Of a stretch of DNA of 64,000 nucleotides, positions 29,202-44,643 are shown piece after piece. The translations under genes were made by a program, and so were the position numbers. The notes under the pieces are model-generated. The model was not told the origin of the DNA and made no database searches. It saw only the letters and a program-made list of their open reading frames with translations. Origin of the DNA: Synergistaceae bacterium (lineage in GTDB: Bacteria > Synergistota > Synergistia > Synergistales > Aminobacteriaceae); the NCBI GenBank assembly GCA_018436595.1, contig JAHDLC010000034.1, positions 1-64,000 of the forward strand, written 5' to 3'. Numbering within the stretch: position 1 is the stretch's first letter; the number at the start of each line of letters is the position of its first letter.

Positions 29202-30257
29202 CTACTGAAGGACCTGCTTGTATTCCCCCCACTGTCCGATGTCGATCCACTTCCGGTGCACCGGGAAGACGCCGATCCTTCCGCCCTTTTTCCTGACCCG
29301 GCCGATGAGGTCCGGCATGTCGAGCTTTTCACCCCCCCCTATCAGGTCGATGCACTCCGGTTCCAGGATATATACGCCGGTGTTCACGATCAAAGGGACG
29401 TCGGGCTTTTCCTCGATCGTTTCGAATTCGCCCCCCGAGAGATGAATAACGCCATAGGGAACACTCACTTTCTTCAGTGCTCCTATTATGGTGAAGGCAT
29501 AGCCGTTTTCCCTGTGAAACTCAAGGGCGGAGAGATAGTCCACGTCCACCAGGATGTCGCAGTTGCTTACGAAAAATGTTTTTGAAAGGCTGTCCTTCAT
29601 CAGGGCGAGGCTCCCCGCCGTACCGAGAAATGTCTCTTCTTCCACGCAGGACACCGAGAACGGCAAATCGCTCCGCTCGGCAAGGTAGGTCTTGATGAAA
29701 TCCTTCCGGTAATTGATGGAAAGAAGGAATTCCGAAAAACCCCGCTTTCCGAAGGACTCCATGATCAGTTCCAGCATGGGCTTGTCGCCGATGGGAAGGA
29801 GGGGCTTGGGAACGATCCTCGTGATGGGGTCGAGACGGCTTCCCCTGCCGCCGGCCATAACCACGACCTTGTTCTCCTGCCGTTCGACCTCTGCTTCTTC
29901 CGAGAGGACGTCCTCGAGGTAAATCACCCCCACAGGCTCCCCTTTTTTCCCCACCACCGGAACCCTGCTTATCCCATGCCGCTCCATGAGGGATCTCGCC
30001 CTGCCGAGGGAATAGGACGACACCGTCTTGGGGGAAGGATTACACACCTCCCCGACAGGCGTGGAGAGCGGTTTTCCCGCGCTGATGCACCGCCGGACGT
30101 CACCGTCGGTCAGCGTTCCGGAAAGTTTTCCGGAATCGTCGACGATCAACAGAATCTGGGAGGATGTGTCATTCAGTAACTGCACTGCTTCCAGGACGCT
30201 CTTTGCACCCTGAAGAAGAAGTTTCTTCACATCATGCTGCTTTGAATATTCCATCAT
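29202..30257 (-). CDS. CBS-domain sugar-1-phosphate nucleotidyltransferase (PtmE-like)
   Basis: 351 aa: two CBS motifs (about 8-125; VDDSGKLSGTLTDGDVRRCI, ISRVPVVGKKGEPVGVIYLED) fused to a nucleotidyltransferase domain (VVVMAGGRGSRLDPITRIVPKPLLPIGDKPMLE; here MAGGRGSRL is the nucleotide loop). In Campylobacter the legionaminic-acid protein PtmE has this CBS plus nucleotidyltransferase build and makes a GDP-linked glucosamine precursor. Location in a leg cluster supports the same role. The nucleotide specificity cannot be read directly. It starts by ATGA overlap with legF. Confidence 0.88.
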   Translation of the reverse strand: MMEYSKQHDVKKLLLQGAKSVLEAVQLLNDTSSQILLIVDDSGKLSGTLTDGDVRRCISAGKPLSTPVGEVCNPSPKTVSSYSLGRARSLMERHGISRVPVVGKKGEPVGVIYLEDVLSEEAEVERQENKVVVMAGGRGSRLDPITRIVPKPLLPIGDKPMLELIMESFGKRGFSEFLLSINYRKDFIKTYLAERSDLPFSVSCVEEETFLGTAGSLALMKDSLSKTFFVSNCDILVDVDYLSALEFHRENGYAFTIIGALKKVSVPYGVIHLSGGEFETIEEKPDVPLIVNTGVYILEPECIDLIGGGEKLDMPDLIGRVRKKGGRIGVFPVHRKWIDIGQWGEYKQVLQ

Positions 30258-31051
30258 TCCTTCACCCTCCCTTCACACCCGGCCACCGCCTGAGCCATCA
30301 GCGTTTTCTTTTTCTCCTGAAGGCCATAAGGGAGGAGATGTTCCCCGTGCTCAAGAAGCAGGTTCATCATCTCCAGGTCCTCCTCATGGTCGATGTCGAT
30401 GATGCCGAAATCCCGCATGATGAACACGTCGAAATCCAGTGCTGCCGGCGATTTGACGCCCCTGCCAAAGACATCCGGGTTGTACGCGTAAATGGAGGCG
30501 TTCATGTCGAACACCTCCGACGCCTGCTGACGGGCCACAAAAGAGGACGGCTTGCACAGGGAAAATCGTCCGTCGCCGTTTCTTTCCACCATGTTGAAAT
30601 AGGGGTTCCTCCGGGCGGGTACGACGGAAAAGACAACGTCCTTTTTCCCCCTGAAGAATACGTCGCAGGTTCTCTCGATATCTTCCGGCGTGCGGAGAGG
30701 AGATGTAATGTCAAGATCGACCACGGCTTCGAAGGTCCGTCCCGTATCCCTGGACGCGTGGGAGAGCACCTCGCCGATAACGTCCATTTTCGCCACCCTG
30801 TCCCCGGCAAGTTCGTTTCTCCGCTTATGGAAGTATGCCCCGGGAGCGAACCGCCCGGCCGTCTCGAGGATCTCGTCGGAGTCGCTGTCCACCGCCAGCG
30901 TTTTTCGTACTTCGCCATCGTCCCGGAAGGCCGAGGCGGCGTCAAAGAGCGTCCAGGCGACCAGCGGCACACCGCAGAGAGGACGGATGTTCTTATTCTT
31001 TATGCCCTTGGATCCGCCCCTTCCGCAGACGGTGAACAGTATCTCCTTCAT
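30254..31051 (-). CDS. legF: CMP-nonulosonate cytidylyltransferase (LegF/NeuA-like)
   Basis: 265 aa. The N-terminus VCGRGGSKGIKNKNIRPLCG is the CMP-sialic-acid synthetase signature, followed by DLDITSPLRTPEDIE with the metal-binding Asp and ARRNPYFNMVE. It would activate the finished nonulosonic acid as the CMP-sugar donor. It overlaps the Gfo/Idh gene upstream and the ptmE-like gene downstream by ATGA. legF is chosen over neuA because legB and legC homologues are in the same operon. Confidence 0.85.
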   Translation of the reverse strand: MKEILFTVCGRGGSKGIKNKNIRPLCGVPLVAWTLFDAASAFRDDGEVRKTLAVDSDSDEILETAGRFAPGAYFHKRRNELAGDRVAKMDVIGEVLSHASRDTGRTFEAVVDLDITSPLRTPEDIERTCDVFFRGKKDVVFSVVPARRNPYFNMVERNGDGRFSLCKPSSFVARQQASEVFDMNASIYAYNPDVFGRGVKSPAALDFDVFIMRDFGIIDIDHEEDLEMMNLLLEHGEHLLPYGLQEKKKTLMAQAVAGCEGRVKE

Positions 31052-31971
31052 TCTATTTCTCCTCCTTCTGCGATGTGCAGTGTCGCCAGCCCGTCCTCCA
31101 GGGAGTTGAAGGACGGACCTCCCCTTTCAGAAAGATTCAGGAAATATGTCATTTCCTTCTCGTAGAGGTCCACCTGCGGAAAGGTCGTCGTTTCTCCCGA
31201 CAGAAGGGAGGTCACGGTCCGCCGCAGAAGGTCGCAGAGGAAGGTATCATCCTCGCAGAACAGCTCCAGTTCCCGGCGGGGCTTTCGTCCGAAATAATCC
31301 AGGTGGACTTCCACCAGCCGCCCCCCGCATGTCATGATATAGGCTGCCCCATCGTCACAGTCGGTCTCGAGGGACGAATACTTGCCGGACACCCGGACGA
31401 CCTTCTCCGGTTCGCCAAAGAGCCACCGGGCGTAGTCAAGCTCGTGGATCAGGTCGAGGGGCACGCCGCCGCCAAGCTCCCGCCGGGCGCTGTAGACGGT
31501 CCGGTAGTCCCTGCCCTTCCGCCAGTCGGGAAGATAGGAGGAGCAGAGCAGTCGGGCCGCAAAGACCTTTCCGGGCAGGCGGGCTTTTAAGTGCTCGATT
31601 ATCGGATGAAACCGCATCGGGCAGGCAACATGGATCGTCTTTCCTGAAAGTGAACGGGGAATGTCGGATGCTACAGAGGAGCTATGAAAAACAGGTTTCT
31701 CGATGAAAATGGACTTTCCCAGGGACTCGGCCTTGAGCAGCGTTTCAAAGTGCATCATCGTGGGGTTGGTAATGAATACCAGGTCATAGGGCGGCTCCAG
31801 GTCATCCCAGGAGGCACAACGTCTGTCCGCCAGACCTTCGGGCATTTCCCCGCCACGGCCGGAGCGTAGGGCGTGAATCTCCACTTTTTGGCCGCGAATC
31901 CCGAGAAGATGCCTCAGGTTTCGGGCATGACGCATCCCGATGGACCCCATGCCGAAGAAACAGGCTTTCAT
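31048..31971 (-). CDS. Gfo/Idh/MocA-family oxidoreductase (intact motifs)
   Basis: 307 aa from the ATG at 31971, which overlaps the upstream stop (ATGA) with GGAG at correct spacing. The Rossmann fold FFGMGSIGMRHARNL is followed by the catalytic IEKPV motif and the GGGVPLDLIHELDY segment carrying the catalytic-type Asp and His. It should oxidise or reduce a sugar or sugar nucleotide with NAD(P). Similar dehydrogenases occur in flagellar glycan loci, but substrate is unknown. It shares a YLPDW motif with the next gene, its paralogue. Confidence 0.8.
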   Translation of the reverse strand: MKACFFGMGSIGMRHARNLRHLLGIRGQKVEIHALRSGRGGEMPEGLADRRCASWDDLEPPYDLVFITNPTMMHFETLLKAESLGKSIFIEKPVFHSSSVASDIPRSLSGKTIHVACPMRFHPIIEHLKARLPGKVFAARLLCSSYLPDWRKGRDYRTVYSARRELGGGVPLDLIHELDYARWLFGEPEKVVRVSGKYSSLETDCDDGAAYIMTCGGRLVEVHLDYFGRKPRRELELFCEDDTFLCDLLRRTVTSLLSGETTTFPQVDLYEKEMTYFLNLSERGGPSFNSLEDGLATLHIAEGGEIE

Positions 31972-33005
31972 TGCTCTCTCCACACCCTCTCGAGTTCGTC
32001 CACCAGCCGAAGGATCTCCCGGTGGCGGGCATAGCTATAGCCTCGCTCTGCCGTTTCACCGCTGACCAGACTGAAAAAATGGCGCAGCTCCTCAAGGTAA
32101 GGGCTTTCGCTGATGAATTCCGCATATCCGGCCTGCCGTTCGAGTTCCTTTTCTTGAAGCAGGGGATGAACCGGTTCCCCTGACGGGGAAAGATAACAAA
32201 GAGACCGGCTGTTTCCCTCCCACAGGATCGTTCCTTCCTCACCGCTGATCCGCAGATTCCTGACCGCCTTCCTCGAGACGCAGTCAACAGTGAGATTCCC
32301 CGCGGTTCCATCGGCGTGGCGCAGAAGGACCTGGCAGGTGTCCGGGTACGGCAAATTCAGGGAGCTGGTCCGGGACCAGGAGCAGCTGAAGTCCGTCACT
32401 TTTCCGAAGCACTCCGTCAGCCAGGGAAGTTCAATGCACAGAATTTCCCGGATGGCGTTCGTCCGGGGCGAACCGACGAAAAACTCGTCATACTTTTCCC
32501 ATGGGTGCCAGTCCGGCAGATACTGCCCGACGTGGTAGGTATAAAACTTCCTCGCCCCCGTCTTCTCATGGTTTCCGATGATCCACCGGTTTTCCGAGCG
32601 GTAGAGGGGGGTCGAGGAGAGAAAAGCCACGGGAAATCCTTTCTCCTCCAAGGGCAAAATTGCGTCATACCCGTCATCCAGAAGGTCAAGCTCGGAGAAA
32701 GTGTGGATGCCCATCCGAATAGCCTCCGTCAAGAAGGGGGCATGCGCCTCGGGAGACGTTGAGACGATCAACGATTGGGGGGCGAAGCTCTCAAGCGCCT
32801 CCCTGAAGCCATCGAAGGTCAGGCAATCGAACTCACGAGCGACAAATTCCCTCCTTTCCTCCCGGCAGTCGACAACCGCGAGGGAGAGGTCAGGGAAGAA
32901 TCTTGAAAGGAGGCGAAGGCGCCGGCGCCCCATGGAGCCGAGCCCAACGATGAGTGCTCTTGAAATAGTCTTTTGTAGCTCCTCATTGCATGGCGCTGAC
33001 TTCAT
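31968..33005 (-). CDS. Gfo/Idh/MocA-like protein with degenerate active site
   Basis: 345 aa. The Rossmann glycine motif is intact (LIVGLGSMGRRRLRLL), but the EKP catalytic motif is replaced by SELDL and the Asp/His helix seen in the paralogue is replaced by AIREILCIELPWL. The YLPDW motif and C-terminal layout are shared with the downstream gene. It may bind cofactor and act as a structural partner of the intact dehydrogenase. GGAGGTTTTGA precedes the ATG at 33005. Confidence 0.75.
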   Translation of the reverse strand: MKSAPCNEELQKTISRALIVGLGSMGRRRLRLLSRFFPDLSLAVVDCREERREFVAREFDCLTFDGFREALESFAPQSLIVSTSPEAHAPFLTEAIRMGIHTFSELDLLDDGYDAILPLEEKGFPVAFLSSTPLYRSENRWIIGNHEKTGARKFYTYHVGQYLPDWHPWEKYDEFFVGSPRTNAIREILCIELPWLTECFGKVTDFSCSWSRTSSLNLPYPDTCQVLLRHADGTAGNLTVDCVSRKAVRNLRISGEEGTILWEGNSRSLCYLSPSGEPVHPLLQEKELERQAGYAEFISESPYLEELRHFFSLVSGETAERGYSYARHREILRLVDELERVWREQ

Positions 33006-33224: not shown

Positions 33225-34190
33225 TCAAATACCCAAGATGATCTGCATCTTGTATCCCAGTTTATTCTTCTGAATAAAATCTCCGGAAAGGAATGAAAGG
33301 TCCCTCCCTCCATCCCTGTCGCCAAAGTAGGGATCTTCATAGTCAAAGTGCTTACCCAGGACATTGCTTTCGTCGATCACGGTTTCTAGAAAGAGAATTT
33401 TGAACCCGTTCTTCTCGCACAAAGAGGTGATCGAATCTGGGGTGTAGAGGTTGACGTGCTCTATTCCGTCAAACATATTGCACCTTTCGTGAAGCGTCCG
33501 TGCCGCAAGGGACCATGCGTTTGGTATTTGAAGAAAAACGACTCCTTTCGGAGAGAGAATCTTTCGCAGTGTGTGAAGGTACTCGGCGCCGCCTTTTATA
33601 TGCTCGAAGACATCCCACAATGTTATCGCATCGAAGGAAACGTCGAACTCTATTGCCTCTACTGGTACGTCCCATATTCGGTGCCCTCTTTCACGGGCGA
33701 TGGCGACCTCGGCCTGGTTCAGCTCCACACCTGCAGTCTTCCAACCTCTTTGAGACGCAATATCAAGGAAGTAACCTCCCGAGCAGCCAATGTCGAGCAA
33801 TCTCCCTTTTTCTGTAAAACACGAAAGCACATCCAGCCCCCTGGAATAGATAGAGTTATAAAAGTCACTCTCACTCTCGTGCGCCGAAGCCTGGCAAGAA
33901 CTATTGTTTTTATAATACTCGACAAGGGCGTCATCCTTAAAGACGGGATTCAAGTAAACCATTCCGCAATCACCGCACTTGACGTATGTTCCGCCGTTTT
34001 TCTCGAACATGCGGCGCGGAGCATGCGCATAACATACCGGGCATGACCTGTAGTGAGTCAGACGATCTTCTACAAGCCCCGTCGACGGGTCGATAAAAGA
34101 TCGTCTGTAAGCATCCGTTGTATCGTACATATTTCTTCTTCGACGATGCAGCTCCGTAGCATCGCTTTCCCGTATAGTGAATTCCGACAT
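33225..34190 (-). CDS. Zinc-ribbon class I SAM-dependent methyltransferase
   Basis: 321 aa. An N-terminal zinc ribbon (CPVC...CGDC, about residues 49-80) precedes a methyltransferase_23-type fold with LLDIGCSGGYFLDIA (SAM motif I), a GVELN acidic loop and DAITLWDVFEHI. It starts directly after the hisF-like stop with AGGAGGGCG. In Campylobacter flagellar legionaminic acid, an acetamidino group can be N-methylated; a methyltransferase next to an amidino triad fits that. O-methylation is also possible. Base composition is clearly more A+T-rich than the housekeeping genes. Confidence 0.85.
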   Translation of the reverse strand: MSEFTIRESDATELHRRRRNMYDTTDAYRRSFIDPSTGLVEDRLTHYRSCPVCYAHAPRRMFEKNGGTYVKCGDCGMVYLNPVFKDDALVEYYKNNSSCQASAHESESDFYNSIYSRGLDVLSCFTEKGRLLDIGCSGGYFLDIASQRGWKTAGVELNQAEVAIARERGHRIWDVPVEAIEFDVSFDAITLWDVFEHIKGGAEYLHTLRKILSPKGVVFLQIPNAWSLAARTLHERCNMFDGIEHVNLYTPDSITSLCEKNGFKILFLETVIDESNVLGKHFDYEDPYFGDRDGGRDLSFLSGDFIQKNKLGYKMQIILGI

Positions 34191-35006
34191 TTAGTTCGCC
34201 CTCCTGAAAAGATTTCTCAAAGACTCCGAAATTTCTCCATTCCAACATGGCAGATCGACCCCTTCGGAAAGAAGCTCCTCTCGGGCGCGGCAGAGTCCGT
34301 CTCCGACAAAGTTGAAGAGATTCGCCGTGGCAACTGCATCCACCCGTCCGTCACGCAGACCTTCTAGAAAGTGCGGCGCCTTCCCCACCCCCCCTGTCAG
34401 GATCAGCGGAACGGGAATATCCGGAGGTAGGGCGTCCAGCATCTCCATATCCAGCCCCTGCCCCGTGCCGTCACGGTCGATGGAGTTGAGGTAGATTTCT
34501 CCTACGCCGAGCGAGAGTGCCATTCTTACACTCTCCTCGATCAACCCTTCCACAGGGTGCCCGCCGTTCTTCATCCGAACCTCATACCCTTCGTCGGTCA
34601 GTTTCACGTCCAGGGAAGCGACTACTGCCTGGCTTCCGTAAAGCGAGACTATCTTTCGCACCTCGTCCTGACGGGTAAAGAGCGCCGTGTTGATCACAAT
34701 CTTGTCCGCTCCAGAGGTGAAGAGCCTTCGGGCATCCTCGACACTTCGAACGCCTCCTCCCGCCGTTATGGGTATGAAGCATTCCTCGGTAAGGGCGGCA
34801 AGGCACTCTGTAAAGGCTTCAATCTTCCTCTCTCCTCTGGAAACATCCAAAACCATCAACTCATCGATTGCCAACGTAATCCTTGAGAAGACATAGTTCC
34901 TCTTCAGCCAGTCGAGCCCACCGACCTTTTGGAGCCGAAAGTTTCTGCTCAGCATGAAGGAGCCTTCATCGTACAGCAGTGTAAAGATAATTCGTTTTTT
35001 CAACAA
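34191..35006 (-). CDS. HisF-like synthase subunit of a sugar amidotransferase system
   Basis: 271-aa TIM barrel aligned along its length with imidazole glycerol phosphate synthase HisF (KRII, ITAGGGVRSVEDARRL, GADKIVINTA, NSIDRDGTGQG, LILTGGVGKAPHFLEG). The first catalytic Asp of HisF (Asp11, in CLDV) is replaced: the segment reads FTLLY. The second (Asp130 equivalent, SLDVK) remains, as do the gate residues Arg5, Glu (DEL), Lys (GADK) and Glu (GEI). It is read as the ammonia-delivery partner of the neighbouring amidotransferase, not a histidine enzyme. TTG start overlapping hisH. Confidence 0.85.
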   Translation of the reverse strand: MLKKRIIFTLLYDEGSFMLSRNFRLQKVGGLDWLKRNYVFSRITLAIDELMVLDVSRGERKIEAFTECLAALTEECFIPITAGGGVRSVEDARRLFTSGADKIVINTALFTRQDEVRKIVSLYGSQAVVASLDVKLTDEGYEVRMKNGGHPVEGLIEESVRMALSLGVGEIYLNSIDRDGTGQGLDMEMLDALPPDIPVPLILTGGVGKAPHFLEGLRDGRVDAVATANLFNFVGDGLCRAREELLSEGVDLPCWNGEISESLRNLFRRAN

Positions 35007-35641
35007 TGGTCGCTCATCCTCAAAAAATTGCGCAACAAAAGCAGCCCGTTGGACTGGCTCTTCTCAGGGTGAAACTGTGCACCGCAAATATTCCCCCTCT
35101 GAACTGCCGCCAGAAAGGGCTCTCCGTAGACGCATATCGCTTCATTATAATCATCCTTTCTCCTCTGAGAGACCCTGTAGGAGTGAACGAAGTAGAAACC
35201 AGCATCCTCCGGAATCTCCTCGAAAAGTCCCTCACGCCGGGACATTGAGACCGTGTTGAAGCCTACATGCGGTATTTTCAAACCCTTCATTTTCTCTTCC
35301 GGGAAACGTTCGACGATTCCTCTGAGTAGCCCCAACCCCTCAGCGCCGCCCTCCTCCGTTCCGAAATCGAAGAGAAGTTGCATTCCAAGGCAGATACCCA
35401 GCAGATACGTGCCCCGCTCCAGAACTCCCTCCAGAAGAGCCTTGTCTAAATGCTTCAAGCGGATTCTCTCCATCGCCTTCCTGAAAGAACCCACTCCGGG
35501 AAGAACAAGGCAGGACGAAGTGGTGATGACGAAAGGATCGTCGGTAACCTCGACCTCGCATCCGAGGTACCGAAAGGCATTCAGAACGGAGAGCATGTTC
35601 CCCATTCCGTAATCGACGACGACCACCCTTTTTCCGCGCAT
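35000..35641 (-). CDS. HisH-like glutamine amidotransferase subunit
   Basis: 213-aa class I glutaminase. The nucleophile is in GICLGMQLLF (Cys84) and the His/Glu pair in GAQFHPEKSQ (His191). It should hydrolyse glutamine and pass ammonia to the HisF-like barrel. The start codon shares one base with the amidotransferase stop (TAATG). Homologues in Pseudomonas (WbpG system) and Campylobacter (beside pseA) accompany an N-acetyl sugar amidotransferase, the same trio as here. Confidence 0.88.
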   Translation of the reverse strand: MRGKRVVVVDYGMGNMLSVLNAFRYLGCEVEVTDDPFVITTSSCLVLPGVGSFRKAMERIRLKHLDKALLEGVLERGTYLLGICLGMQLLFDFGTEEGGAEGLGLLRGIVERFPEEKMKGLKIPHVGFNTVSMSRREGLFEEIPEDAGFYFVHSYRVSQRRKDDYNEAICVYGEPFLAAVQRGNICGAQFHPEKSQSNGLLLLRNFLRMSDHC

Positions 35642-36753
35642 TACTCTACCGTGAACAGAGGTGCCCAGCGCCCCTCTTTTTTTTCGAACAGATCCTTGTT
35701 GACCCAGCGGTCGAGAACTGCGTCGAACTCCTGCCGTGTCATTTGGTAGTATTCGAGATAGGTCGGAACGAATTCTTCGGGGTACTGCCCATCGTAGAGG
35801 CGCACCAGATTGACGCCCTGTCCCCTAGTCATCGCGCCACGACGGATTTCGATGCCCACATCCTGAGTCGCTCTCCCGAAGCCGAACTTCAAGTACATCA
35901 TATAGGTGTGCAGCGCGTAGAGTGCCTGATCGTTCTGTGCGAAGTTGGTGAAGGTGCCGCTGTTCGACTCACTTGCTTCCTGAAGCCCGCACTTTTCCTT
36001 GGCAACGAGGTAGTTCCTATAGGGATCCCACGACTCGAAGTACGACCAGTGCGTGATGCTCAGGTCTTTCCCCGCAAGCTCTCTCTCCGAGGGAAACTTG
36101 AAGAAGGAGAGTTGTCCCTCCGAGAGTCTCGAAGCATTCAGCACCTTCTCGTACCCTCCTTCGAGGTAGATTCTCCGCATGTACTCGATGGAGTATATCG
36201 CGCGGTTCTTCGACTCGGTGGAACCGCCATACTCCACCTCGCCATCCTCACCGTAGAAGAGAAGAGGGATGTTCAAGTTCACGGCCATGCGAACTACTGC
36301 GGCCTGAATTGAGATCAGCCAGCCATAATAAGGAAATCCCTTTTCGACGAATCCCGCCCTGTTGAGCACCCTCATAGCTTCCGAGTCAGGATTGATCTGA
36401 ATGTGGTTGAATCCGCTATTGATGAAGTTCCTGAGATTCGTGTTTCCCAGCTCAAGGGAGAGCGCCGGAGTGACTGTGATGCAAAGAGGTTTCATTCCAT
36501 AGTCGTCCCTGAGGCGGCATGCTACATATGAACCGTCCTTGCCTCCACTGACGGGAACTACGCAGTCGAATCCTCCCTCCTTTGATCTGAACTTGTCCAG
36601 AAGTTCGCGAAGCTCGTCCTGGCGCTTCGCCCAGTCCAGCCTTTTTTTTTCCTCTGCCCACTGGCAGGCGTTGCACCAACCGCGTGTATCGAATGTCACC
36701 CTTGGACGGGTGGACATGTTCAAGCAGTTTGTACACCAAAAAACATTTGCCAT
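35641..36753 (-). CDS. N-acetyl sugar amidotransferase (WbpG/PseA-like)
   Basis: 370-aa PP-loop enzyme. Two zinc knuckles (CTNC, CNAC; residues 7-30) precede the ATP pyrophosphatase loop VPVSGGKDGSY (Ser about 69). Family members convert an acetamido group to an acetamidino group using ammonia from a HisH/HisF pair. ATG at 36753 follows AAGGAG with 9 bases; an ATG at 36762 abuts that site and is less likely. Specific target here is probably the C5 or C7 N-acetyl of a nonulosonate, which is inference. Confidence 0.9.
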   Translation of the reverse strand: MANVFWCTNCLNMSTRPRVTFDTRGWCNACQWAEEKKRLDWAKRQDELRELLDKFRSKEGGFDCVVPVSGGKDGSYVACRLRDDYGMKPLCITVTPALSLELGNTNLRNFINSGFNHIQINPDSEAMRVLNRAGFVEKGFPYYGWLISIQAAVVRMAVNLNIPLLFYGEDGEVEYGGSTESKNRAIYSIEYMRRIYLEGGYEKVLNASRLSEGQLSFFKFPSERELAGKDLSITHWSYFESWDPYRNYLVAKEKCGLQEASESNSGTFTNFAQNDQALYALHTYMMYLKFGFGRATQDVGIEIRRGAMTRGQGVNLVRLYDGQYPEEFVPTYLEYYQMTRQEFDAVLDRWVNKDLFEKKEGRWAPLFTVE

Positions 36754-36804
36754 GCTCCGCATCTCCTTCGTTTCTTGTTATTTTCAGGTAAACGCTGAAT
36801 CAGC

Positions 36805-37452
36805 TCACTGTTTGACACATAATCTAGCCGGGTTTCCAAAAACCTTTGTAAAACACGGCACATCTCGAATCACGACCGCCCCGGCCCCGACGACAGCTTT
36901 CTGCCCTACGATTACCCCGGGAAGAAGAACCGCGCCTGCTCCGATGAACGCACCTTCCTTAACCCGGGTGTTTCCGCACAGGATGGCTCCGGGACCGATA
37001 AAACTGCCGGCTTCCACACTGCAGTCATGTTCGAGAACAGCCCGGGTGTTCACCACGGAGTTCTCGCCGACGGCCGCGTTTCGCTGCAAGACCGATCCCG
37101 CCATTATCTGGCTTCCTTCCTCGAGATTCACCGCCGGAGAAACAACAGCTGACGGATGGACCAGTGAAAGAAAAGAATAGCCTTGAGCCCTGAACCTGCG
37201 GAAGAGATCATTCCGCAGCGTCATCCCCGGAACAGCGCCGACACCGTTCACCAGGACAATTGCTTCCGGAGGCATGGAAAGGACAAAATCATCGTCTCCG
37301 AGCACTGGGATGCCTTCCCAAGTCTCCCCCGGATGCTTCTCGGGATCAATGACGCCCATGGGGCATATTCCGCCGGTCAGGAGGAGATCCAGCACCACCG
37401 AGGCATGTCCTCCCGCACCGAGGATCAACACCCTGGCCGAAAGGTTATTCAT
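36805..37452 (-). CDS. NeuD-like sugar O/N-acyltransferase (possible LegH function)
   Basis: 215 aa. An N-terminal Rossmann-like PglD/NeuD fold (LILGAGGHASVVLDLL) leads into a left-handed beta-helix of hexapeptide repeats (VVNTRAVLEHDCSVEAGSFI). Such proteins acetylate a 4-amino sugar nucleotide or the nonulosonate. In this operon it is the best candidate for the N-acetyl step between aminotransferase and epimerase. ATG at 37452 overlaps the neuB-type stop by 8 bases; the frame is open to 37515. Confidence 0.85.
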   Translation of the reverse strand: MNNLSARVLILGAGGHASVVLDLLLTGGICPMGVIDPEKHPGETWEGIPVLGDDDFVLSMPPEAIVLVNGVGAVPGMTLRNDLFRRFRAQGYSFLSLVHPSAVVSPAVNLEEGSQIMAGSVLQRNAAVGENSVVNTRAVLEHDCSVEAGSFIGPGAILCGNTRVKEGAFIGAGAVLLPGVIVGQKAVVGAGAVVIRDVPCFTKVFGNPARLCVKQ

Positions 37453-38518
37453 TGATGCCTTCATCGGGTTCATAGTCTTTCCCCGCCGTCCTGCCGAGCA
37501 ATTCCCAGAATTCAAAGGGAGACATGCCGTTACCGGGCCGCTTGAAGGCTATGTCATCACTGGTGAACCGTTCCCCTTTTCTTACCGGCCGTGACGCTAC
37601 GATGCTCTTTCTCACCAACTCCCTGGTATCCCATTCCGACCTGGACGGCACCTTTGCGCCGGTGCCAAGGGAACACTCCGCCAAACGCACTTCCTTAACC
37701 AAACGGGAAAACAAAACCGGATCAAGGGATGCCCTGTGGTCAGGGCCTGCCTGTTCCCGATCCAGTGTAAAATGTTTCTCAATTATGCAGGCACCGAGAG
37801 CCACGGCTGCGATCGAGACCGCCGTTCCCTCGGTGTGATCCGAGTATCCTACCGGAAGACAGAAAGCGTTCCTTAATGTGACCATTGCCTTGAGGTTAAC
37901 TTCGTCCACAGGAGCCGGATATTCGGAAGTACAGTGCAGCAGTGAGACTTTGTTCATCAGGGCGGCGCGGCCTTCTCCCGACGCAAAAGCACGAAGAAAA
38001 GAACCGGGGGATGGAGCACAGTGAGGTTCCGTATAACCGAAGGCGAGACATGAAAGCGCTGTCTCGACCTCGCCGAGGGTGGCCATGCCGGTGGAGAGGA
38101 TGACGGATACTCCTTTCCGGGCGGCACTAAGCAGGAGCGGGCCATTTGTTATCTCGCCCGATCCGAGTTTGACCGTCTTCATTCCAAGGCCGTCCGTCAA
38201 AAAGTCGAGGCTCCCCTGGTCGAAAGGACTGGAGAGAAATTCCATTCCTCTCCTTCTGCACTGTTCAAGGAGCGCTTCGTGAATCACAGGGGACAGTTCG
38301 AGCTTTGAGAGCATTTCCCACTGGGTTTCTTTTTCACCGGTCGTTTTTTTCTGGTACTCCGCCTTGGGCGCATTTTTCCGGACAAGGGCGGAAGCTGTAA
38401 ACGTCTGGAATTTGACCGCATCGGCCCCGGCGTCGGCTGCCGCGTCGACAAGCCGGAGGGCCGTTTCCTGTGAGCCGTTATGGTTTACTCCGGCCTCAGC
38501 TATGATATAGACACTCAT
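37445..38518 (-). CDS. legI: N,N'-diacetyllegionaminate synthase (NeuB family)
   Basis: 357 aa. The PEP-condensing TIM barrel begins VYIIAEAGVNHNG and holds VKLGSGEITNGPLL, HCTSEYPAP and GYSDHTEG; a C-terminal SAF (antifreeze-like) domain ends the protein (VRKGERFTSDDIAFKRP). It condenses PEP with a 6-deoxy-ManNAc derivative to give the nine-carbon acid. ATG at 38518 is chosen from GGAG spacing and from the normal N-terminus. legI rather than neuB follows from adjacent legB/legC. Confidence 0.9.
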   Translation of the reverse strand: MSVYIIAEAGVNHNGSQETALRLVDAAADAGADAVKFQTFTASALVRKNAPKAEYQKKTTGEKETQWEMLSKLELSPVIHEALLEQCRRRGMEFLSSPFDQGSLDFLTDGLGMKTVKLGSGEITNGPLLLSAARKGVSVILSTGMATLGEVETALSCLAFGYTEPHCAPSPGSFLRAFASGEGRAALMNKVSLLHCTSEYPAPVDEVNLKAMVTLRNAFCLPVGYSDHTEGTAVSIAAVALGACIIEKHFTLDREQAGPDHRASLDPVLFSRLVKEVRLAECSLGTGAKVPSRSEWDTRELVRKSIVASRPVRKGERFTSDDIAFKRPGNGMSPFEFWELLGRTAGKDYEPDEGINE

Positions 38519-38522
38519 CTCA

Positions 38523-39674
38523 TCACTCCGTCCATGGGATGGCATGGAAACGCTTCGACGGTTCCAGGACTGCAGTTTTCAGGTACTCCGCCATCAACGC
38601 TGAAGGGGCGGGAAGGTCCGGCGATATCTTGCCCGTCTGGCGGCGCCTGGTAAGGGCATGGCGCACCGCTGACTCCACTCCGTCCGTTTCACAGCGGCAG
38701 TCGATCACAAGCCCATTCCGAAGGCGCCCTTCCTGCCTTCCCCCGATGTTCACCACCGGGACGCCGAAGAGAGGCGCTTCCATGATGCCGCTTGAGGAAT
38801 TGCCGATAATGGCATCTGATATCGAAAGCATACCCCAATATCGTTTCCTCCCCAGTGACTGGACAAAGACCCGTTTTTCCGGAGCGAGCCTGCAGAATTC
38901 GAGCATCCGCTCGTTGATTATCCGTCCGTCAGTGTCGGCGTTGGCTCCGGTGAAGACAATAGTTGCCGACGGGAAACAGTCCAGCGCAAAGAGGAGACGT
39001 TCTATCTGCTCTTCTGCAGGCAAAGGAGAGCGGGTTTCAGGGTGATAGGTTACGACGAAGAGGGGTGATGAAAGGAGAATGCCAAGGTGCTGCTCCAGTT
39101 CTTTCCTGGCCGGCAGTTCCGTCTCCCTGATCCCGTCAAGGCACGCCGGACCGACGACGAAGACCGAATCGGGAACCTCCCCCATCTGGATCACCCGCCG
39201 CCGGTAATCTTCATGAGCCACAAAGTGGAGGGAACTCATCTTGGTGATGGCGTGCCGGAAGGCGTCATCGTAAGCGCCGAGGGTGATCTCGCCTCCGTGG
39301 ATGTGGGCGACGTGGATACCCGCGAGCACGGCCGCCGCCGCGGCACCGAGCATCTCGTACCGGTCGCCCAAAATGACCAGAATGTCCGGTTTCAGTTCAT
39401 CAAGAGCGTCCGCGAAACCAATGATGCCGAGGCCAAGGGACTTGGTCACCGCAACGGGTGAATCGCCGGAGAGAAGCATCTCCACCCGTTTGTGGATGGG
39501 AAAGCCGTCCTCCTCGATCTCCTTCCAGGTCAGGCCGAACTCGGGCGACAGGTGCGCACCGGTAACAATAACCTGCAGCTCCAGGTCCGGATCGTCCAGG
39601 ATTTCCTTCATCAGCGGGCTGAGAAGACCGTATTCAGCCCTTGTGGCGGTTATGACGGCGATTTTCCGGGCCAT
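38523..39674 (-). CDS. legG: Hydrolysing sugar-nucleotide 2-epimerase (LegG/NeuC family)
   Basis: 383 aa, GT-B-like fold. Begins IAVITATRAEYGLLSPLM, with HIHGGEITLGAYDD and GNSSSGIMEAPLFGVPVVNIG, the NeuC signature. It would invert C2 and release the nucleotide to provide the ManNAc-type substrate for the next enzyme. AAGGTGAGGCA precedes the ATG; gaps to both neighbours are 4 bases. Confidence 0.92.
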   Translation of the reverse strand: MARKIAVITATRAEYGLLSPLMKEILDDPDLELQVIVTGAHLSPEFGLTWKEIEEDGFPIHKRVEMLLSGDSPVAVTKSLGLGIIGFADALDELKPDILVILGDRYEMLGAAAAAVLAGIHVAHIHGGEITLGAYDDAFRHAITKMSSLHFVAHEDYRRRVIQMGEVPDSVFVVGPACLDGIRETELPARKELEQHLGILLSSPLFVVTYHPETRSPLPAEEQIERLLFALDCFPSATIVFTGANADTDGRIINERMLEFCRLAPEKRVFVQSLGRKRYWGMLSISDAIIGNSSSGIMEAPLFGVPVVNIGGRQEGRLRNGLVIDCRCETDGVESAVRHALTRRRQTGKISPDLPAPSALMAEYLKTAVLEPSKRFHAIPWTE

Positions 39675-39678
39675 TGCC

Positions 39679-40782
39679 TCACCTTCTCATGGAAAGGACG
39701 GCATCACGGATAATCTCCGCCGCCCGAAGGGTGGATTCTTCATCGTTGACCGTGGAAGCGGGAATGTTGATGCCCTGTTCGAATATACGCTCGGCATGGG
39801 GATAAGAAAACCGGCAAGAGTCTTTCAGGTAGGGATAGGTGTGCAAAGGAGAAAAGAGTCTGCGGGTGGGCACGCCTTTTTCCCGAAGTTTTTCCTGAAG
39901 TTCCGGAACGGCGCCGCCGGAAAGGGAGAATGACGGAAGCCACCAGGCACTCTGCGCTCCCGGAAGCTCTTTCTGGAATTCCACCTCCGGAAGGCCGGCA
40001 AGGACTTCCCGGTAGATCCGGGCAAAGGCCGCCTTCTTTTCCAGGAAAAAATCGATGCGCTCCATCTGGGCGAGGCCGAGGGCGGCCTCGAGGTTCGTCA
40101 TGCGGTAGTTGTACCCCATTTCAGGGTGGAAATATCCCTTTGACGCATCCCGTGCCTGGTTGGCGAGAAAACGGATGTGGTTCAGGTTCTCCCTGTCACG
40201 GGCAACGACCATGCCTCCCCCGCCGGTGGTGATGAGTTTGTTTCCGTTGAAGCTGAAGCAGCCGAAATTCCCCAGGGTTCCGGAGGGTTTCCCTTTCCAC
40301 GTTCCTCCAAGGCTCTCGGTGGCGTCTTCGATGATGACGAGTCCCCGCTCTTCCGCAATCCTTCCCAGTTTGTCCATGCCGCAGAGGTTGCCGTAGAGGT
40401 GGACGGGCAGAATCGCCCGGGTTCTGGGTGTAACGGCTGCCTCAGCCAGCTCGGGATCAAGGGTCCATGTTTCGGGGTCCACGTCAACAAGCACAGGGGT
40501 CGCCCCGGTGTACAGGATGGGGTTGACGGAAGCGGCAAAGGAAAGGGCGGGCACGATGACCTCGTCCCCCGGTCCCACCCCCGCCTCGGCAAGGGCAATG
40601 TGGAGGGCTGCGGTACCGCTCTGGACCGAGACGCAGTCCTCCATCCCGAGGTACCTGGCGAACCGCTGCTCGAACTCCGGCACGAAGGGGCCTGCGGTGG
40701 AAACATAGGTGGAATCCACGCACTCCATGAGTTTCGCCTTTTCCGCCCCTCCAAGGTTTGGTGCGTCAAGAAGCAGGAACAT
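39679..40782 (-). CDS. legC: DegT/DnrJ/EryC1 PLP-dependent sugar aminotransferase (LegC-like)
   Basis: 367 aa. Aspartate-aminotransferase fold with the PLP lysine in SFNGNKLITTGGGGMVV, phosphate-binding SGTAALHIAL and LEDATESLGG-type region (IIEDATESLGG). It aminates the 4-keto sugar made by the dehydratase. ATG at 40782 is chosen because AAGGTG lies 6 bases upstream; an in-frame GTG at 40791 coincides with that site. Confidence 0.93.
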   Translation of the reverse strand: MFLLLDAPNLGGAEKAKLMECVDSTYVSTAGPFVPEFEQRFARYLGMEDCVSVQSGTAALHIALAEAGVGPGDEVIVPALSFAASVNPILYTGATPVLVDVDPETWTLDPELAEAAVTPRTRAILPVHLYGNLCGMDKLGRIAEERGLVIIEDATESLGGTWKGKPSGTLGNFGCFSFNGNKLITTGGGGMVVARDRENLNHIRFLANQARDASKGYFHPEMGYNYRMTNLEAALGLAQMERIDFFLEKKAAFARIYREVLAGLPEVEFQKELPGAQSAWWLPSFSLSGGAVPELQEKLREKGVPTRRLFSPLHTYPYLKDSCRFSYPHAERIFEQGINIPASTVNDEESTLRAAEIIRDAVLSMRR

Positions 40783-40794
40783 GTCGTTCACCTT

Positions 40795-41766
40795 CTATAC
40801 GTTATAGATGCCGCTCTTGTAGAGCGCCCTGCGACCCTTCATCCATTCGGCGGTACGCTTCAGGCCTTCCTCGAGGGAAACGGCGGCCTTCCACCCCGTG
40901 AGGGCGTTCATCTTCGACGGATTCGAAAGCAGCCGCTCCACTTCGCTCTTCTCTGGGCGAATCCGCTGTTCATCGGAAGTTATGCGGAAAGATTTCCCCA
41001 TGATTTTTCCGATGAGCAGGGAGAGGTCTCCCATGGAAATTTCCGTGCCCGTGCCGAGGTTCAGTACCTCGCCCACGGCACCGGGAGCTTCCGACGCGGC
41101 CAGGAATCCCAGGACCGTATCGTCCACGAAGGTCAGGTCCCGGGTTGGGGAAAGGTTCCCCAGGGAGATTTCCTCTTTTCCGTCGAGGAGCTGGCTGATG
41201 ATGGTGGGGATGATGGCCCGCGCCGACTGCCTCGGGCCGTAGGTGTTAAAGGGCCGGACCACCGTCACGGGAAGGCCGAAGGAGCGATAATAGGAGAGTG
41301 CGAGATAATCCGCCGAGGCCTTGGTGGCCGAATAGGGGGACTGGGGGGTTATGGGGTGTCCTTCGTCGATGGGGACATATCGGGCCGTTCCGTAGACTTC
41401 GCTGGTGGAGGTGTGGATCACCCGCTCAACTCCGCAATCCCGGGCGGCCTGGAGGACGTTGTAGGTCCCCTCCACGTTGGTCTTCACATAGGCCAGGGGA
41501 GAAACGTAGGAATAGGGTATGCCGATGAGGGCCGCTAGGTGAAAGACCCTATCACAGCCATGAACGGCCTGCCGAACGAGGTCGAAATCACGGATATCTC
41601 CCGAAACGATGTCCATTTCTTTGGCGTATTCGGACTCCTCAAGCCATCCCCAGGAGTTTTTCGAGTTGTACCGAAGAAAGGCCCGGACTTCGTGGCCCCG
41701 CTCCGCCAGTTTTTCGGCCAGTTGCGAACCAATGAACCCCCCGGCTCCTGTGACACATATCTTCAT
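40795..41766 (-). CDS. legB: NAD-dependent sugar-nucleotide 4,6-dehydratase (LegB-like)
   Basis: 323-aa extended SDR: nucleotide motif CVTGAGGFIGSQLAE (residues 3-17), TSEVYG and the YSATK catalytic pair, then NTYGPRQS. It makes the 4-keto-6-deoxy intermediate that starts the legionaminic-acid branch. First gene of the sugar operon in transcription order, starting about 70 bases after the fla terminator. ATG at 41766 (GGGGGAAG upstream) gives the correct N-terminus; the open frame runs further upstream through the terminator. Confidence 0.92.
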   Translation of the reverse strand: MKICVTGAGGFIGSQLAEKLAERGHEVRAFLRYNSKNSWGWLEESEYAKEMDIVSGDIRDFDLVRQAVHGCDRVFHLAALIGIPYSYVSPLAYVKTNVEGTYNVLQAARDCGVERVIHTSTSEVYGTARYVPIDEGHPITPQSPYSATKASADYLALSYYRSFGLPVTVVRPFNTYGPRQSARAIIPTIISQLLDGKEEISLGNLSPTRDLTFVDDTVLGFLAASEAPGAVGEVLNLGTGTEISMGDLSLLIGKIMGKSFRITSDEQRIRPEKSEVERLLSNPSKMNALTGWKAAVSLEEGLKRTAEWMKGRRALYKSGIYNV

Positions 41767-41833
41767 GCGGCTTCCCCCATAATGGACTGTTCCGGAAAAT
41801 TTTAATCCCATTCCAGTATCGTCCGTTTGAGGG

Positions 41834-41871
41834 AAAAAATAAAGAGGCGGCCGCTTCTGCGGGCGCCTCTG
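41834..41871 (-). terminator. Terminator after flaG
   Basis: In the minus direction a 12-bp stem AGAGGCGCCCGC/GCGGCCGCCTCT (one mismatch) with an AGAA loop is followed by TTTATTTTTT. It separates the flagellar genes from the sugar operon. Confidence 0.9.
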
Positions 41872-41888
41872 GCAGTACATCGCAAATA

Positions 41889-42314: not shown

Positions 42315-44636
42315 TTACCGGAGGAGCTGCAGCACGTTCTGGGGAAGCTGGTTCGCCTGGGCAAGCATGGAGTTGCCGGCCTGCATCAGGATGTTCAGCT
42401 TCGTGAAGTTCATCATTTCCTTCGCCATGTCGAGGTCGCGGATGCGGCTCTCGGCTGCCTGGAGGTTCGTGCCGGCGACGGTCAGGTTGTTGATGGTATG
42501 CTCCAGCCTGTTCTGGTAGGCGCCGAGCTTGGCCCTCTGGCCGGACACCCGGTCGATGGCGCTGTCGATAACGGTGATGGAGCGGGCTGCGGACTCGCGG
42601 TCAGTGACGAGCACGTTGTTGATGCCAAGGGCCTTGGCACCCATGTCGCCGATGTCGATGCCCATGTCTTCCTTCTCGTTGGCGCCGATCTGGAAAACGG
42701 TGGTGTTGTCCGCAAGATGGATGACCGTCTCATAGATACCGGAATCCCTGGAAAGCCTGAAGCCGAGGGCGCTCTCGGACCACTCCACCTTCGTGTTGGC
42801 CATGGCGTCGAATTCAATGTCCACATTCTTGTGGACCACGCCGAAGAGCATGTTACCGGTGACCTTGACGTTGGAGGCGATGGTAGCCCCATTGTGGGCG
42901 TCGTTGATGCTCACCCGGTACTGGCTCTCGCTGGAATTCTGGATCACGTTGAGGCTGAGGGCCTTGATAATGTCCTCGTCGCCCGCGAAGTTCAGCTCGC
43001 CTGCCTTGCCGGCGATGGCGGAGCGGATGACGAAGGTGCCGTCCACGGATTCGGGGGTATTGTAGGTCGAATCTTCAACGAAGTCCACGAACCGGTCGGT
43101 GTTACTGTCGAGGTACTGAGCCTGGCCGAGGCCGAAAGCTACAGCGTTGTTGAGCTTGAACTCGATGTCCCGAAGGGTGTCGGTGGAATTCAGGGTAACC
43201 ACAGCCTGTTTCCCGTTCCCCTGGGTGATGGTGATGTTCTGGGGATCCTCGATCATGAAACGGCCGTTAGCATCCCAGAACTTGTCAAGGTCACGGAGCT
43301 GCACATCGCCCTTGGCCACCTGACCGACGAATGCTGCCTCGAAACCGGCAAGGACTGCATTAGCGGCTGTAAAGTTGTCGTTCAGCTGCAGTACGATGTC
43401 GGACTCGTACAGCGTACCGTTGGCAGTATTGAGGTAGAAGTTCCTGAAGTGGACATCTTTACCGAGAACTGCTACATCGTCAAGAGTAAAGACTCTATCC
43501 TGCAAGGTTTGTCCTGCAGTAGACCCCCAGTTGCCAAACCATTCGGGGTTTGTAGTGCCGGAGATGGTGACAGTGGCATCGGTTGCCGCAGCAGAGCCGA
43601 CAAATGCCAAAACAATTTTATTGCCGATGGAGTAACTATCTGCTCCGTTCGCACCAGCAGCACTAATCGCCAATGTGCTGGCTCCGAGACCAAGGGCGGA
43701 GAGGTTTGCCCCGGCAGAACCGACCAAAAGGTTATCGTTCACTTTTGTAGAAACAGTCCCGTCCTGGTTCAGTATATTGCTGGTGGCACGGAAGGTAACC
43801 TGGTTGGTGCCGGTATTAACTGCCACAACCTCGAGATAAACAGACGCACCGCCAATTCCTGCTGCGGTGGCAGCAACAAGGTCAAGCCCCGCATCGGTAC
43901 CAAACCTCTGAAGTGACGTGAGGGTTGTGTCTGTTGCGGCTGCTGCACGGGTGATATTGTACGTTCCCGCAGGAAGGCTGTCCACCCTGATGCTTTGAAC
44001 ACCTGCTGCTTCGTTCTTGGTGACGTTCATGATCACGTTATCGTGCTTGATCTTGAAGATGTCGCTCTTCTGGATCTGGGCTTCGCCGGGGTCGGCAATG
44101 ATGCTGATCTTGAAGTTGCCCTCGGCGGCGGATTTCTGGCCGAACTGGTCGATCTGGCGCAGGGCGCCCCGTACAAGGGCCTTGGTCTCAAGCTTGTCTG
44201 AGGACCACAGCACGGATGCGCTGCCGTCGAGCAGCTTCTTTTTGTTGAACTGGGTGGTGGTAGCAATCCTGGTGACTTCTTCCTTCAGCTGATCCACTTC
44301 GAGCTGGATGTAGCTCCGGTCCTGGCTGGTGAGCGTGTCGTTGGCGGCCTGGACGGAAAGCTCGCGCATGCGCTGGAGAATGGAATGGGTCTCGTTCAGG
44401 GCGCCTTCAGCGGTCTGGATCATGGAGATGCCGTCCTGGCTGTTCCGCACTGCCTGGTCGAGGCCCCGGACCTGGGCGCGCATCTTCTCGCTGATGGCGA
44501 GGCCGGCGGCGTCGTCGGCGGCACTGTTGATCCGCAGACCGGTGGACAGCTTTTCAATAGACTTTTGAAGGGATGCATTCGTTGAAGAAACGGAATTGTA
44601 CGCAAAAAGCGCAGGTATGTTGTGGTATATTCTCAT
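42315..44636 (-). CDS. Flagellin with large central variable domain
   Basis: Filament subunit of 773 aa, longer than usual (about 275-500). The N-terminal D0/D1 region is canonical ([20 protein letters not shown], then [14 protein letters not shown]), as is the C-terminal one ([15 protein letters not shown]...QLLR). About 450 residues between them form a variable domain rich in Ser, Thr, Ala and Gly, with part (about 43480-43960) of lower G+C. These exposed residues are likely Maf glycosylation sites. ATG at 44636 is preferred over 44642 because AAGGAGG has an 8-base spacer. Transcribed from a sigma-28 promoter within maf and probably repressed by CsrA. Confidence 0.96.
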
Positions 44637-44643
44637 ATTCATA

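Follow-up and report, generated by a model that had tools for sequence, protein, structure and literature searches.

This locus raises the question of what a protein with the fold of a histidine-biosynthesis enzyme, HisF, is doing beside a sugar amidotransferase, near a flagellin gene. In the 64,000-nucleotide stretch of Synergistaceae DNA analysed here (the window), the coordinates of the HisF-like ORF are exact and its reading frame is intact, and the encoded protein begins M-L-K-K-R, as its relatives do (Table 1). Our answer, developed below, is that this HisF copy probably now passes ammonia to the sugar-modifying enzyme.

Table 1. The HisF-like gene of the window and the genes around it.
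Feature	Coordinates	Strand	Remarks
CBS-domain sugar-1-P nucleotidyltransferase (PtmE-like)	29202..30257	-	sequence and profile
Cytidylyltransferase, CMP-legionaminate synthetase-like	30254..31051	-	PF02348
SAM-dependent methyltransferase	33225..34190	-	start codon abuts the HisF-like stop
HisF-like (beta/alpha)8 barrel	34191..35006	-	271 aa, TTG start
HisH-type glutaminase	35000..35641	-	213 aa; C84, H191, E193 and PGVG oxyanion motif intact; over TIGR01855 cut-off
N-acetyl sugar amidotransferase (NASAT, WbuX/WbpG type)	35641..36762	-	373 aa; PP-loop SGGKD and four invariant Cys
NeuD/PglB-type sugar N-acetyltransferase (LegH-like)	36805..37515	-	profile match
NeuB/LegI nonulosonic acid synthase	37445..38545	-	profile match
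NeuC/LegG hydrolysing 2-epimerase	38523..39674	-	profile match
LegC-family aminotransferase	39679..40791	-	389 bits, cut-off 420
LegB-type NAD-dependent 4,6-dehydratase	40795..41880	-	472 bits, cut-off 475
Flagellin, presumed glycan acceptor	42315..44642	-	775 aa, sequence

A preliminary description of this DNA had claimed that the first catalytic Asp of HisF was lost while the ammonia gate and the second catalytic Asp were retained, and alignment bore this out. The CLDV segment of T. maritima HisF (residues 9-12) reads TLLY in the window protein, with L11 at the position of D11, whereas D130 (window D133) and the gate residues R5, E46, K99 and E167 (window R5, E49, K102 and E170) are kept. 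HisF homologues from genomes show the same residues as the T. maritima reference sequence, and the alignments from a PDB search are consistent with it. The identity of the gate residues and their T. maritima numbering we take to be established knowledge of imidazole glycerol phosphate synthase (IGPS) (Douangamath 2002; Chaudhuri 2001); a literature search for one paper naming all of them together found none. In HisF, D11 serves as general acid and D130 as general base (PMC11350729). A displaced Asp at D13, the nearest acidic residue, was rejected as a substitute for D11, since it is not conserved (in the window clade described below, just 50% of members have Asp there). Further changes, which the preliminary description missed, are K19 to Leu, G20 to Ser, T21 to Arg, A54 to Arg and S225 to Asn, with N22 and F23 of loop 1 still present. 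In HisF, G20A or T21G each lowers kcat about 100-fold and K19A has little effect (PMC11350729); K19, N22 and F23 of IGPS touch the PRFAR-like ligand or active-site residues (PMC8115485).

The AlphaFold2 model of the window protein is a barrel (mean pLDDT 92.9, pTM 0.90) that matches HisF crystal structures with TM scores of 0.77-0.84 of the query, and it places L11 in strand beta-1 (5-13) and D133 in beta-5 (128-137), the same strands as D11 and D130 of HisF. The protein scores 128.9 bits against PF00977 (His_biosynth), above the gathering cut-off of 23.6. Against TIGR00735, the IGPS cyclase subunit HisF, it reaches 149.6 bits, below the cut-off of 294.55, and one of the two Asp of the catalytic pair that characterises that family is gone (L11/D133). 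It also falls below the cut-offs of TIGR03572 (WbuZ; 213 bits, cut-off 299.7), as do three tested members of its clade, and of NF038364 (AglZ/HisF2; 161.9 bits, cut-off 310). By its position adjoining NASAT and HisH it fits the broad HisF2/WbuZ kind of accessory protein of acetamidino systems. That kind is already known, and the deep subfamily of the window gene lies below every curated cut-off.

The three genes form a run of overlapping ORFs in the order NASAT-HisH-HisF, in which HisH begins within the amidotransferase stop codon, at its final base, and the HisF-like ORF overlaps the HisH stop by 7 nt; the NASAT scores 352 bits against TIGR03573 (NASAT/WbuX), above the cut-off of 203. A legionaminic-acid cassette (LegB, LegC, NeuC, NeuB, NeuD, the cytidylyltransferase and the CBS nucleotidyltransferase) adjoins the flagellin gene, and the same genes accompany most triads of the window clade in other phyla. 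These shared genes therefore point to a legionaminate acetamidino system, a kind known from Campylobacter and Legionella. Two adjoining Gfo/Idh/MocA oxidoreductases also lie in the cassette (31048-33005), and many clade members are accompanied by a relative of the first one. An N-methyl group is known on some acetimidoyl-legionaminic acids, and it is possible that the SAM-dependent methyltransferase could N-methylate the acetamidino group.

To place this gene among others, NASAT-linked HisFs were surveyed using the amidotransferase as bait, with a Synergistota profile (A1); the HisF-like neighbours at the best 80 matching loci from GTDB species were read together with the Synergistota cases. 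Because the bait was the amidotransferase and not HisF, HisF residues were not selected for. Among 92 NASAT-linked HisFs, 49 had lost D11 and kept D130, 40 had lost D130 (replaced by Glu, Gln or His) and kept D11, one had both replaced and two kept both. The four gate residues were kept in all 92 and in the canonical controls, and both Asp were kept in those controls, which are mostly from Synergistota (51/51 Synergistota sequences and 13 full-length sequences from clade genomes). Every D11-less HisF at the Synergistota loci that were read was a NASAT neighbour. Six later plasmid-borne cases fit this picture (four D130E, one D11L, one with both replaced). Canonical HisF has 61 invariant positions, 11 of which keep a conservation of 98% or more throughout the three NASAT-linked groups; these 11 include all four gate residues, a retention beyond chance by a hypergeometric test that ignores phylogeny (p = 0.0006), the other survivors being six glycines and one proline. 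The HisH catalytic residues were intact wherever aligned (Cys in 77/77; His and Glu in 73/73, with four gapped).

Several loci of the survey deserve mention in their own right. At L152:4967-6520, beside two NASAT genes, a single 518-aa ORF fuses a D130E-type HisF (N-terminal) to HisH (C-terminal); yeast HIS7 has the opposite order, HisH-HisF. Some loci (L104, L105, L116 and L124-L126) hold a pair of adjacent NASAT systems whose HisFs differ, one lacking D11 and the other D130. A D130Q paralogue adjoining NASAT at L148:9159-9935 scores 296.6 against the hisF cut-off of 294.55 and would be annotated as an IGPS cyclase, and in public records D130-less copies beside NASAT are named IGPS cyclase subunit.

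An unrooted maximum-likelihood tree was built without columns 11 and 130. The window protein falls in a multi-phylum clade of 28 members (support 100/100), HisF paralogues beside HisH and NASAT and mostly within legionaminic-acid cassettes. Three further groups comprise another 21 D11-less sequences, 43 D130-less sequences (100/100) and the canonical sequences (100/96), and the D11-less rows together make up one side of a branch (99/88). If the ancestor had both Asp, each residue must have been lost at least once, making two or more separate losses. In the window clade position 19 is Leu or Gln, and G20S (100%), T21R (100%), A54R (86%) and S225N (86%) are characteristic, while in the D130-less group C9 is Arg or Lys throughout. 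D130E is a conservative change, and cyclase inactivity is less certain for the D130-less group. It seems to us about an even call that HisF was turned from cyclase into non-cyclase ammonia conduit at least twice, through loss of D11 or of D130 with the gate untouched, that the window gene stands for a third subfamily, as yet unmodelled and associated with legionaminate, and that its rebuilt C-terminal face may dock the PP-loop sugar amidotransferase. We found no description of reciprocal Asp loss in the open-access literature on HisF2, WbuZ or acetamidino systems; most subscription papers lay outside this scope, and for them the search is weak evidence.

The closest known systems differ from this one in defined ways. 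The AglZ/HisF2 acetamidino proteins (NF038364; P. aeruginosa HisF2, Methanococcus AglZ) share the arrangement of a HisF paralogue beside HisH and a WbpG-type NASAT, and the second D11-less group of the survey scores closer to them; the window protein differs in sitting in its separate 28-member clade with K19, G20 and A54 also replaced. WbuZ, the glycosyl amidation-associated protein (TIGR03572; E. coli O145 type), is the best-scoring curated family and has the same WbuX and HisH triad; its cassette is for FucNAc, whereas that of the window is for legionaminate. With IGPS HisH-HisF the window system has in common the fold, the gate residues and a glutaminase partner with intact triad, but the general acid D11 and loop-1 residues are missing. 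The window NASAT is a relative of that from Legionella pneumophila (PDB 8wex; E 1e-56), which was solved alone in a paper that leaves HisH and HisF unmentioned (PMC10607449). In the NASAT reaction the N-acetyl group of a sugar is ligated with ammonia, probably with conversion of ATP to AMP (PMC10607449). In a Sphingomonas colony-morphology screen, transposon insertions in WbuX, AglZ/HisF2-type and HisH genes were all recovered (PMC11340318).

Considering these results, we regard it as likely that the window gene encodes a cyclase-dead HisF paralogue that conducts and gates ammonia within a three-part amidotransferase formed with HisH and NASAT, a reading in which docking and channelling are inferred. 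In the proposed process, HisH, whose active site is intact by sequence, would hydrolyse glutamine, and the ammonia would cross the retained R5/E46/K99/E167 gate and the barrel, as in IGPS, and leave by the face that once served the cyclase, the proposed docking place of NASAT. NASAT would then activate the sugar N-acetyl group with ATP and add the ammonia, as described for NASATs, forming an acetamidino group. The cassette makes a legionaminic-acid precursor or CMP-legionaminate, bound for flagellin, the most likely substrate, and the product would be acetamidino-legionaminic acid. The cyclase general acid D11 and the loop-1 residues, now lost, would have been dispensable for such a protein. 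The preliminary description had likewise proposed ammonia service to the adjacent sugar amidotransferase, free of imidazole-glycerol-phosphate chemistry. That proposal is well supported, by inference, from the overlapping triad, the intact HisH triad, the gate (92/92), the replacement of at least one cyclase Asp (90/92) and the separate canonical HisF described below. The interpretation as a whole is supported in part: the Asp loss itself is general to NASAT-linked HisFs of the HisF2/WbuZ kind and not peculiar to this locus, and another branch arrives at a comparable state through replacement of Asp130.

Some features count against a simple conduit. D130, the GGG loops, N103, D176 and F23 of the cyclase face are still present, and a pure conduit would not obviously need them. 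The barrel might have a new role in catalysis or binding, in which its C-terminal face (D133, phosphate loops) binds a nucleotide sugar or adenylated intermediate and joins in amidination. D130, G81/G82, G177, G202/G203, N103 and D176 are near-invariant in the window clade, and the clade-specific G20S, T21R, A54R, S225N and H228N (86-100%) look less like decay than like the outcome of selection for another ligand or partner. However, NASAT already has an ATP site, the PP-loop, and a large pocket for its substrate (PMC10607449), and the kept glycines may be structural; we consider such a role unlikely. Less likely again is that the barrel merely activates the HisH glutaminase allosterically, with ammonia released to solvent. 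The cluster of gate residues is close to the interface with HisH, and the allosteric networks of IGPS include fK99, fD98 and fR5 (PMC9052757), and therefore gate conservation could reflect allostery. Against this, the PRFAR effector site is partly dismantled (K19, G20, T21 and A54 replaced), and tunnel-mouth residues invariant across three divergent groups are most simply explained by a conduit.

The genome has a his cluster on another contig with HisH-, HisA- and HisF-type genes, whose HisF scores over the cut-off with D11 and D130 intact, and the idea that the window gene is the sole HisF was rejected. An over-cut-off canonical HisF was found in 14 of 16 genomes with window-clade members, the other two being single-cell assemblies of 0.7 and 1.1 Mb. 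The dN/dS of the window gene against an 82%-identical relative in a related genome is 0.11, which indicates purifying selection (0.056 for the amidotransferase pair) and, with the intact frame, led us to reject a pseudogene. A decaying or backup HisF of histidine biosynthesis is thus scarcely credible despite homology to HisF (PF00977; 35% identity to the canonical HisF of the same genome), given this dN/dS, the his cluster and the loss of D11 across the whole clade.

Five genomes with a NASAT that lacks a HisF neighbour were traced; a NASAT-type HisF was found elsewhere in three, and only canonical HisF in two. The latter (L127, L128) are Lachnospiraceae with legionaminate cassettes that contain NASAT and no dedicated HisH or HisF. 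A NASAT with no HisH/HisF neighbours occurs in a genome that has a window-type HisF (I11, Q19, SRNF motif) together with HisH elsewhere (L108 and L175). The plasmid loci L219, L220 and L223 had no HisF beside NASAT. On the Azospirillum plasmid (L223:2157-5116), with no HisH or HisF near, a glutamine-hydrolysing asparagine synthase gene directly precedes NASAT, and this asparagine-synthase-like amidotransferase is a possible alternative ammonia supplier. From L127, L128 and the HisF-less plasmid NASATs, therefore, ammonia delivery by HisF is usual and not universal.

If the conduit reading is true, these residues provide a simple test for mis-annotated hisF genes, such as the D130-less copies beside NASAT. 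The barrel of a classic metabolic enzyme would then have found new use as a gated pipe for ammonia, its original chemistry abolished by two different routes. Nature would thereby have separated conduit from catalysis, two functions with a long history of study in IGPS, in a form that single mutants could test.
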